64,000 nt of DNA from Sphaerochaeta associata (lineage in GTDB: Bacteria > Spirochaetota > Spirochaetia > Sphaerochaetales > Sphaerochaetaceae). Shown here in pieces: positions 57,880 through 60,952 of this stretch. Position 1 is the stretch's first letter; each line of letters begins with the position of its first letter. Position numbers and translations under genes: made by a program. The notes under the pieces were generated by a model that saw nothing but the letters and a program-made list of their open reading frames with translations, did no database searches and had not been told where the DNA came from. The stretch covers positions 2,170,001 through 2,234,000 of the forward strand of contig NZ_CP094929.1 in NCBI RefSeq assembly GCF_022869165.1. Direction: 5' to 3'.

Positions 57880-60399
57880 TTACTTGTCCTTGTTCTTTCC
57901 TTCATCATCGAGCCAGAAGAATGAATCATTCTCATTCTCGCCCCGGGTCCTGGTTTCACGGAATTTGTCAAAACCGTACGGTTTGGGGGAAGATTTGCGT
58001 TCACGCTTCACCCTGCCTTCCGTGCCAGCCTCATCACGAGGGGCGGAGAATGCCGGACGGTCTTCGCGACTTCTGAACGAAGGACGCTCGCTTCTGTCAC
58101 CGTAGGGTCTTCTCTCTCCATAGGAGGGGCGATCACCTGAGGGTCTTCTGTCGTCACGGTCACGGAACGAGGGCCGCTCGGGCCTGTCGCCGAACGGTCT
58201 TCTCTCACCGTAGGCGGGACGATCGCCTGAGGGCCTTCTGTCGTCACGATCACCAAACGGTCTTCTTTCGTCACGATCAGGGAATGAAGGTCGTTCTGGC
58301 CTGTCGCCGAACGGTCTTCTCTCACCGTAGGCGGGACGATCACCTGAGGGTCTTCTGTCGTCGCGGTCACGGAACGAGGGACGCTCGGGTCTGTCGCCGA
58401 ACGGTCTTCTCTCACCGTAGGCGGGACGATCACCAGAGGGCCTTCTGTCGTCGCGGTCACGGAACGAGGGACGCTCGGGCCTGTCACCGAACGGTCTTCT
58501 CTCTCCGTAGGCGGGACGATCACCGGAGGGTCTTCTGTCGTCGCGGTCGCGGAACGAGGGACGCTCGGGTCTGTCTCCGAACGGTCTTCTCTCACCGTAG
58601 GCGGGACGATCGCCTGAGGGTCTTCTGTCGTCACGGTCACGGAACGAGGGACGCTCGGGCCTGTCGCCGTAGGGTCTTCTCTCACCGTAGGCGGGACGAT
58701 CACCGGAGGGTCTTCTGTCGTCGCGGTCGCGGAACGAGGGACGCTCGGGCCTGTCGCCGTAGGGTCTTCTCTCTCCGTAGGCGGGACGATCGCCTGAGGG
58801 CCTTCTGTCGTCGCGGTCGCGGAACGAGGGACGCTCGGGCCTGTCGCCGTAGGGTCTTCTCTCACCGTAGGCGGGACGATCGCCTGAGGGTCTTCTGTCG
58901 TCGCGGTCGCGGAACGAGGGACGCTCGCTTCTGTCGCCGTACGGTCTTCTCTCACCGTAGGAGGGACGATCGCCTGAGGGCCTTCTGTCGTCGCGGTCGC
59001 GGAAAGAAGGACGACGATCATCGCGTGCTCCTCTCGGTTCATCGCTTCGTCTCTCATACTCTTTTCTAGGAGCACGATCAGCCTCCGGCTGTTCAGCTTC
59101 TTCGCTCTCTTCAAAAAGCGGAGCAATATCCTCATCATCCCAGCGAAGGGTCAAAAGGTCGTCCTCCACTTCATTGGCTTCAATTTCATCAGCAGCTTCT
59201 TCGATTTCCAGTTCAAGATCAGAGGACTCTTCTTCCTGTACGGTTTCTTCTGCACTCTCTGCTACGACTTCGTCTTCTTGTACACTCTCGGCTGCAATTG
59301 CTTCTTCTTGTGCAACCTCTGCTACAATCTTTTCTTCTTGCACATCAATGTTTTTTGATACTTCTTCTTTCTTCATAATTTCATCATCCACTTGTTCTTC
59401 ACGCTGGTCTCTGCCAGCTTTTTTCTCAACGGTCCGCAGATCTGCTGCAGTAATCCGTACATCTTGTTGCTTCGTAAGCAACCACGTCCTCGCCGTTCCT
59501 AGACGGCGTGTAAACCCAGGGGCTGCAACCTGTGCTGTTATCTCTTGAACCTCAAATCCTCGAACTGCTTTCGTGTCCATCCTGAATGTTCCCAGATTTG
59601 TAGAGAACACCAGTATTCCTTCCCTCGCCAATAGTGCATTCAACACTTTCATCCAACGCTGATAATCTCTCTGGACATCAAAATCATACTCCATCTTCCT
59701 GCTGTTGGAAAAACTCGGTGGATCAAATATGATCAAGTCATATACTTTTCCACTCGACAGCGCCTCAACAACATACTGCCACGCATCGGCGGCAACACAA
59801 GGATACATTGCTGTACCATACCCATTGTCAGCAAGATTCTTTTCGGCCCATGCAGTATAGGTAGCGGACAAGTCCACCGACTCAACGCTGGCGGCCCCGC
59901 CCCTGGCTGCATACACCGAGAAGGATCCCGTATAAGAAAACAGGTTCAGCACCCTGCATCCCCGGCTCATCGACTCAACCATCATTCTCGTTTCCATGTG
60001 GTCAAGAAATAAACCGGTATCGATTCTCTTGGTCAAATCTACGGTAAAGAACAGTTCATTCTCCGTGACTTGTAAAACCAACGAAGTTTCGCCCTGCAAG
60101 CTGTGCTGTTCCTTGCCCACCCGTTTGGGTCGGCGATGGAAAATCACGCGGTCGGCCTGGATGTAAAGCATACGGGAGACGATATCGCAGCATATCCGCT
60201 CCTCCTCTTCCTCCAAGCCCTCTTCGCTGTAATCGGTGACCCTTGCATAGGGACCATAGAGATCCACAGTAACTGGGAACCTCTCAAGGTTTCGATCATA
60301 TACTCTCATACAAGTAGTGCCGCTCTTAAGCATCATACGGCGCATTTTGAGAGCATTACTCTTCAAAATCTTGCTAAAATCCTTCTCTGTGTAATCCAT
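57880..60399 (-). CDS. RlmI/RlmK-like rRNA methyltransferase with long Arg/Asp-rich repeat tail
   Basis: An 839-residue fusion. Residues 1-320 are a SAM methyltransferase: DTGLFLDHMETRMMVE near 135, SAM motif VLNLFSYTGSFSVYAARGG near 155, VDLSATYTAWAEKNL near 180 and catalytic loop LIIFDPPSFSNSRKM near 225. Residues 335-450 are strongly acidic (Glu/Val-rich). Residues 467-775 are ten near-identical 30-residue units with Arg, Asp, Pro, Ser, Tyr/Phe and Gly, followed by a basic tail. Ordinary RlmI/RlmK domains end near 390. TAGGAATG precedes ATG 60399. It has a single-gene transcript by position. Confidence 0.88.
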   Translation of the reverse strand: MDYTEKDFSKILKSNALKMRRMMLKSGTTCMRVYDRNLERFPVTVDLYGPYARVTDYSEEGLEEEEERICCDIVSRMLYIQADRVIFHRRPKRVGKEQHSLQGETSLVLQVTENELFFTVDLTKRIDTGLFLDHMETRMMVESMSRGCRVLNLFSYTGSFSVYAARGGAASVESVDLSATYTAWAEKNLADNGYGTAMYPCVAADAWQYVVEALSSGKVYDLIIFDPPSFSNSRKMEYDFDVQRDYQRWMKVLNALLAREGILVFSTNLGTFRMDTKAVRGFEVQEITAQVAAPGFTRRLGTARTWLLTKQQDVRITAADLRTVEKKAGRDQREEQVDDEIMKKEEVSKNIDVQEEKIVAEVAQEEAIAAESVQEDEVVAESAEETVQEEESSDLELEIEEAADEIEANEVEDDLLTLRWDDEDIAPLFEESEEAEQPEADRAPRKEYERRSDEPRGARDDRRPSFRDRDDRRPSGDRPSYGERRPYGDRSERPSFRDRDDRRPSGDRPAYGERRPYGDRPERPSFRDRDDRRPSGDRPAYGERRPYGDRPERPSFRDRDDRRPSGDRPAYGERRPYGDRPERPSFRDRDDRRPSGDRPAYGERRPFGDRPERPSFRDRDDRRPSGDRPAYGERRPFGDRPERPSFRDRDDRRPSGDRPAYGERRPFGDRPERPSFRDRDDRRPSGDRPAYGERRPFGDRPERPSFPDRDERRPFGDRDDRRPSGDRPAYGERRPFGDRPERPSFRDRDDRRPSGDRPSYGERRPYGDRSERPSFRSREDRPAFSAPRDEAGTEGRVKRERKSSPKPYGFDKFRETRTRGENENDSFFWLDDEGKNKDK
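58075..59001. repeat. Ten tandem 90-bp in-frame repeats
   Basis: Units of 90 bp (30 residues) spaced exactly 90 bp apart, for example at 58441, 58531, 58621, 58711, 58801 and 58891. One unit carries an extra 27 bp (58233-58300 region, residues with ERRPFG). Units differ mostly at third bases and at S/A, Y/F and S/P positions. High identity points to recent unequal exchange. Confidence 0.95.
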
Positions 60400-60478: not shown

Positions 60479-60952
60479 ATGGAAGAAGATGCACAAGCCT
60501 TTATCGCAGAATTGGAAACGAGGCACGAAGCACCACTGACATGGAAAACCTATGCCACTTGGTATGGAAACAATCATGAGGTATTCAGAGAATTCGGGGT
60601 TTTCTTCTATAGATGCAAAAATGCTTTCTACTTTGAGGATTTTGAAAGAAATCCGACCTTATTCGGCATAAATCTAAAGCCAAAGAAAGCAAAGGGACCA
60701 TTCATCAAGTTTGAAGGTTCCTTTCATCTTGATGAGGTGCAGGATACAAGGCCGATCCCAAAAACCCTGGCATTTAAAATAATCGAGGGAAGGCGTGATG
60801 TTACCTCAGTCAGGAATTCAAATCTCTTGGACAGAGTGTTCAGGCAAATGGTTGAGATGGTTACATTGAAAAACGGCACAGTTCACTTTTTTGAACTGAT
60901 GGATCGAAAACAGTTTGTAAAAGAGTTGCAGCACGGCAACAAGGAGGAATAG
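60479..60952 (+). CDS. Uncharacterised conserved-looking protein
   Basis: I do not recognise a family. The 157-residue product is soluble, with WKTYATWYGNNHEVFREFGV and an FYRCKNAFYFEDFERNPTLF stretch rich in aromatics. AAAGGA lies 8 nt before ATG 60479. Its stop directly abuts the GTG of the phosphomannomutase gene, so the two are translated in tandem. Confidence 0.7.
   Translation: MEEDAQAFIAELETRHEAPLTWKTYATWYGNNHEVFREFGVFFYRCKNAFYFEDFERNPTLFGINLKPKKAKGPFIKFEGSFHLDEVQDTRPIPKTLAFKIIEGRRDVTSVRNSNLLDRVFRQMVEMVTLKNGTVHFFELMDRKQFVKELQHGNKEE

Follow-up and report, generated by a model that had tools for sequence, protein, structure and literature searches.

A stand-alone RlmK-type methyltransferase of the Sphaerochaetaceae carries a long, predicted disordered C-terminal tail, gained once, in which the amino acid composition and a short end motif have been kept while the order of the residues has been scrambled. 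It is encoded within the 64,000 nucleotides of the Sphaerochaeta associata genome analysed here (contig NZ_CP094929.1, positions 2,170,001 to 2,234,000 of the forward strand), which are referred to as the window. The open reading frame, at 57880-60399 on the reverse strand, begins with an ATG, has an AGGA 6 to 9 nt upstream as read directly from the sequence, and specifies 839 amino acids. These are arranged as a methyltransferase domain, an acidic linker, ten 30-residue Arg/Asp repeats, one of which is widened by a 9-residue insertion in the protein register, and a C-terminal segment (Table 1). Everything that the initial annotation described is there, but its figure of about 400 disordered residues was too low, the linker and tail together comprising about 525.

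Table 1. Features of the tailed methyltransferase gene, in window coordinates
Feature	Position	Strand	Basis
RlmK-like SAM-dependent methyltransferase domain, residues 1-312	59464..60399	-	NCBIfam, Pfam PF10672, PDB 3v8v/3v97 residues 393-701, AF2, Foldseek
Acidic linker, residues 313-406 (94 residues)	59182..59463	-	Alignment of orthologues
Conserved internal Met then KKE, residues 342-347	59359..59376	-	
N-terminal anchor motif EANEVEDDLLTLRWDDEDIAPLF, residues 407-429	59113..59181	-	DDxLxLxW pattern in most of the Sphaerochaetaceae
Ten 30-residue Arg/Asp/Pro/Tyr/Phe repeat units, residues 466-774	58078..59004	-	
C-terminal anchor segment, residues 797-839	57883..58011	-	PYG core in 43/43 complete family tails; end-segment profile specific to Sphaerochaetaceae
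KPYGFDKF within the C-terminal anchor segment	57961-57984	-	
FFW within the C-terminal anchor segment	57913-57921	-	

The C-terminal half of the NCBIfam RlmKL model (NF008748) matches residues 5-311 with an E value of 2.4e-83. At 280.6 bits the score is below the curated cut-off of 466 bits, so this is not a full RlmKL, and the alignment begins only at position 395 of the 704-position profile, leaving out the THUMP domain and the RlmL N-terminal half. Pfam PF10672 also matches the domain. A phmmer search of the PDB aligns window protein residues 6-309 with the RlmK domain of E. coli RlmKL (YcbY; 3v8v/3v97, residues 393-701; E 2.8e-57), and Foldseek, run with a family member's AlphaFold model, places RlmKL first, the best matches having 32% identity. 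The likeness to the E. coli domain is therefore one of sequence, predicted fold and motifs, both the SAM motif NLFSYTG and the DPPxFSNS motif being kept. Unlike RlmKL, the window protein has no THUMP or RlmL part, falls outside the clade of RlmKL K-halves and has a tail.

The profile, PDB and fold matches bear out the assignment to a superfamily of rRNA-modifying methyltransferases, and the RlmK part of the earlier description as RlmI/RlmK-like. The RlmI part is rejected. The RlmI-type score, about 70, is below its cut-off of 712, no match to a PUA domain was found in the protein, and the RlmK matches are far stronger. Motif VI reads FSTN, as opposed to FSCS in the RlmI-like protein of the same genome (L003), so the m5C catalytic cysteine is absent. 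The m5C-type enzymes RlmI, RlmO and SMU.776 share the PF10672 superfamily and the catalytic fold with the window enzyme, but differ from it in having the PUA domain and a cysteine-bearing motif VI.

A complete RlmKL (L002, 815.5 bits, above the curated cut-off) is present on the same chromosome. The window enzyme is thus not the only RlmK of this genome, and is a paralogue of the RlmK half. The E. coli RlmKL is responsible for m7G2069 and m2G2445 and contributes to assembly of the large subunit; other bacteria are reported to have RlmK and RlmL as separate proteins (PMC11194073). Given the separate full RlmKL, it is doubtful that m7G2069 of 23S rRNA is the product of the window enzyme, which is probably an RNA methyltransferase, its putative rRNA target being inherited only from the similarity of fold. 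In the phylogenetic tree the RlmKL K-halves, including that of E. coli, form one group (100/98) with the stand-alone L066 inside it, and most stand-alone RlmK-like proteins are in a separate group (99/95).

Named relatives belong to Sphaerochaeta and Spirochaetales bacteria. At a threshold of E 1e-50, 110 of 119 Sphaerochaetaceae genomes have a match to the enzyme, a few of these matches being to RlmKL alone. Genomes without a match at this threshold include G061, G077 and G089 (genus g37) and G062; for G061 and G077, of 1.2 Mb each, gene loss in a reduced genome is possible. Nearly all stand-alone orthologues in the family lie in open frames of 420 to 1315 codons, stop to stop, with exceptions at contig ends, in fragments and in G030. 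In the rest of the class the corresponding frames are below 450 codons, apart from one RlmKL-sized match of 724 codons. The untailed orthologues that were read out have 307 to 335 residues and end at about residue 310, and no remnant of a tail was found downstream of them. The initial annotation was therefore right in so far as relatives outside the Sphaerochaetaceae lack the tail, although its absence from all orthologues, which would have undone that reading, is contradicted by nearly the whole of the Sphaerochaetaceae. Five of the untailed genes (L058, L059, L060, L062 and L063) have GalE, phosphomannomutase, the gene at 60479 and GlnRS as neighbours, in varying completeness, and are positional orthologues since these neighbours are shared with the tailed loci. 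In the tree the tailed proteins group together (100/99), and a single protein within their clade, L061 from a 1.2-Mb genome, has no tail. This is consistent with one gain, on the stem branch of the Sphaerochaetaceae, and one loss. In two further species with small genomes the tail is short and Lys-rich (L126, L127); together with the tail-less L061, these indicate that the repeat region is dispensable somewhere.

Tandem Repeats Finder reports a 90-bp array at 58246-59013 (8.5 copies, 92% matches, score 1214) with diverged copies on its flanks, which is far beyond chance. An assembly artefact, considered in the initial annotation, is ruled out because independent assemblies, near-closed ones included, carry tails of their own (G001, G002, G011, G016, G017, G018 and G070). 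Many draft-assembly tails are cut off where a contig stops within the repeats. In the closed genome G019, frame shifts inside the array of L043 place the N-terminal anchor, pieces of the array and the C-terminal anchor in different frames, with the C-terminal motif intact in another frame, which may reflect error or decay. Neither the window tail sequence nor its C-terminal motif has a second occurrence in the S. associata genome, and no other tail-bearing protein was found there. Long open frames also cross the array in other frames (58008-59138, reverse strand, 376 aa; 58284-59069, forward strand, 261 aa) and are most likely by-products of the codon use of the repeat.

Alignment between genera fails in the middle of the tail, and the repeat unit differs (for example DRRPSGDRPSY, YGDRPERRPFGDRAERPS, DRPRRFDNDRPRGDRPF and DRRDYS), and tail length varies widely, from roughly 165 to 480 residues. 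The composition is nevertheless constant over about 20 genera. The 38 tails measured have a net charge of +0.074 per residue (sd 0.027) and an R/(R+K) of 0.90, compared with 0.54 in the enzyme domains; Tyr and Phe make up about 9%, aliphatic residues are mostly below 3% and there is no cysteine. The correlation of tail R/(R+K) with GC3 is only 0.25, and both the aromatics and the excess of Arg over Lys are kept across GC3 values of 0.22 to 0.80. In L144, at the lower end of this range (0.22), R/(R+K) is 0.26 in the enzyme domain and 0.80 in the tail. The window tail has fractions of 0.28 R, 0.01 K, 0.16 D and 0.09 E, and a net charge of +0.04 per residue. Charge alternation is above that of shuffled tails in most species, and is strong in the window tail. 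In bacteria, the low-complexity regions of proteins that bind RNA or process rRNA are enriched in arginine (PMC6821194).

The tail is bracketed by two motifs. On the enzyme side is a DDLLTLRWDD-like motif, generalised as DDxLxLxW. In Sphaerochaeta it follows the acidic linker and in several genera it adjoins the enzyme directly; some genera have looser forms. The linker itself, judged by alignment, is found in Sphaerochaeta and some sister genera and is absent from other genera of the family. Lys/Ala/Pro-rich stretches that resemble histone H1 tails (KKAAKKTAKKAVKADE) occur in the acidic linkers of L072, L073, L051 and L132. At the C-terminal end the bracket is KPYG[FY]D...FFW. All 43 complete non-redundant tails, those with gaps or frame shifts being left out, have [KRL]P[YF]G[FYM] near the C terminus, compared with 0.16% of shuffled ends; the pattern was written after inspection of the family, so this count is a description of it rather than a blind test. 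Searched across 393 genomes of the phylum, a profile of the end segment matched Sphaerochaetaceae only. Its sensitivity is incomplete, since G070 was missed at threshold and yet its protein L125 has RPYGFE. Outside the family tails there are weak single matches only, among them G035:C8:21300-21350 (E 4.5e-4), which is not reproduced in relatives.

As the sequence varies between species while its make-up and end signature stay fixed, the tail probably has a function in the enzyme and is not repeat debris. We propose that the ancestor of the Sphaerochaetaceae had a stand-alone RlmK-type enzyme that gained the tail once, and that the tail has since been selected as a multivalent tether concentrating the enzyme on a ribonucleoprotein substrate. 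The tail would have three parts: the acidic/hydrophobic motif near the enzyme, an Arg/Asp spacer and the C-terminal PYG...FFW. With its alternating Arg and Asp, slight positive charge and Tyr/Phe 'stickers' at regular intervals, the spacer would cohere weakly and multivalently with RNA-protein assemblies, pre-50S particles being the most likely; the C-terminal motif would dock a specific partner, and the enzyme would thereby be kept concentrated at the site where its substrate is produced. On the features of the family sequences, the chances of this proposal being right or wrong seem to us evenly balanced. The idea of an RNA-binding, condensate-forming tail, raised in the initial annotation, is offered as a hypothesis only.

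Peptides of alternating Arg/Asp did not phase-separate alone, while blocky ones phase-separated and bound RNA (PMC9324279). For this reason the main rival is a plain spacer, in which the repeats are a soluble, non-sticky polyampholyte that separates the enzyme from its docking motif, the composition being kept for solubility and extension. Strong charge alternation and near-neutral charge suit such an extended chain, and the wide range of tail lengths and the end motif, the most conserved piece of the tail, also speak for a spacer. A pure spacer, however, has no need of the aromatics or of the preference for Arg over Lys, both of which have been held across the whole range of GC3, and this alternative is considered somewhat unlikely.

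The predicted structures bear on a second alternative, that the acidic linker or the tail folds onto the RNA-binding face of the enzyme in cis and is displaced by substrate. The linker and the Arg-rich chain are on one polypeptide, and a helix is modelled at residues 318-368. AlphaFold pLDDT values are about 80-95 for most of the enzyme, mostly 45-53 for this helix, which is unreliable, and 32-41 for the window tail from residue 363, with 33-41 through the repeats, in keeping with the disorder predicted earlier for the repeats. With 17 family sequences as input to AF2, neither anchor motif has a confident structure, and docking of the tail motifs on the enzyme is not seen in the models. Added to this, the linker is absent in several genera. 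Autoregulation of this kind is therefore improbable, and the models offer weak evidence that the anchor motifs act in trans. No solved structure resembling the tail in sequence was found.

The repeat units of the window have a mean DNA identity of 90.4% (81-98%), and no two are identical. This identity had been taken to imply rapid expansion. The silent divergence between copies is, on the contrary, about 31%, with pS of 0.314, pN of 0.027 and pN/pS of 0.085 for the ten units. Variable sites are found at 18 of 30 third codon positions and 5 of 60 other positions, and differences at so many third positions show that the array is not freshly expanded. The pN/pS value is descriptive, as comparisons between pairs of copies are interdependent and gene conversion may make the copies more alike; values in six other species are 0 to 0.21, and are biased downward because the units were selected by protein pattern. 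From their sequences the repeats look to be constrained at the protein level rather than newly made. The turnover of units between close species is nevertheless fast, L037 having an enzyme domain 96% identical to that of the window and a differently arranged tail. Such turnover, and units that differ between species, would suit a functionless neutral or selfish expansion of tandem repeats at the 3' end of the gene, but the low pN/pS, the reading frame and end motif kept in all 43 complete tails, the constant composition and the retention after one gain contradict it and make it very improbable. Equally remote is the production of a full enzyme and a free tail protein from an internal start at Met342: the genus keeps a Met followed by Lys/Glu near residues 336-351, in an otherwise poorly conserved region, but no species has an AGGAGG-like sequence upstream of it and several genera have neither the linker nor such a Met.

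Among known systems, the window tail resembles the arginine-enriched mixed-charge domains that eukaryotes have in speckle proteins, SNRNP70 and NELFE among them (PMC9324279), with which it shares dominance of Arg and Asp in alternation, Arg far in excess of Lys and a slight positive charge. It differs in being bacterial, in its regular Pro/Gly/Ser and Tyr/Phe, in its conserved flanking motifs and in its fusion to a methyltransferase. The Arg-rich GAR domain of fibrillarin, present in eukaryotes and not in archaea, is likewise a disordered extension that one lineage has gained on an rRNA methyltransferase core and that relatives of this core do not have (PMC9957100). Its repeats are RG/RGG and N-terminal, whereas those of the window protein are R/D and C-terminal; the window repeat unit has no RG dipeptide and so is not of the GAR type. 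The parallel is by analogy one of working style and not of membership. That this family-wide enzyme is a bacterial counterpart of the fibrillarin arrangement, with a tail that evolves by both bulk composition and end motif and that recruits the methyltransferase into a spirochaete ribosome-assembly body, is a reading that we regard as unlikely. The C-terminal region of RNase E is also a long disordered tail on a bacterial RNA enzyme, and organises the RNA-protein assemblies called BR-bodies (PMC10412687); the window enzyme is of a different type, and a condensate formed by it is hypothetical. No report of such a tail on RlmK or RlmKL, or in Sphaerochaeta, was found in the literature searched.

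The family provides a clean natural experiment on bacterial disordered regions, as it offers tailed and untailed orthologues by the dozen, several of them at the same position on the chromosome. The central part of the tail has diverged beyond alignment between genera, yet charge, Arg:Lys ratio and aromatic content are held, and the conservation of the short end motif calls for explanation. It would allow a test of whether bacteria localise rRNA-modifying enzymes by sticker-and-spacer tails; work on this question has mostly dealt with nucleoli and speckles.

At 60479-60952 on the forward strand is a gene for a 157-residue protein with no Pfam or NCBIfam match. It is head-to-head with the methyltransferase gene in most syntenic loci of the Sphaerochaetaceae and of several related families, at about 21-84% identity, and its product is possibly a functional neighbour of the methyltransferase. 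Elsewhere in the window, a hexanucleotide tandem repeat, TCGTGA, is present at 2660-2718 (9.8 copies, 98% matches).
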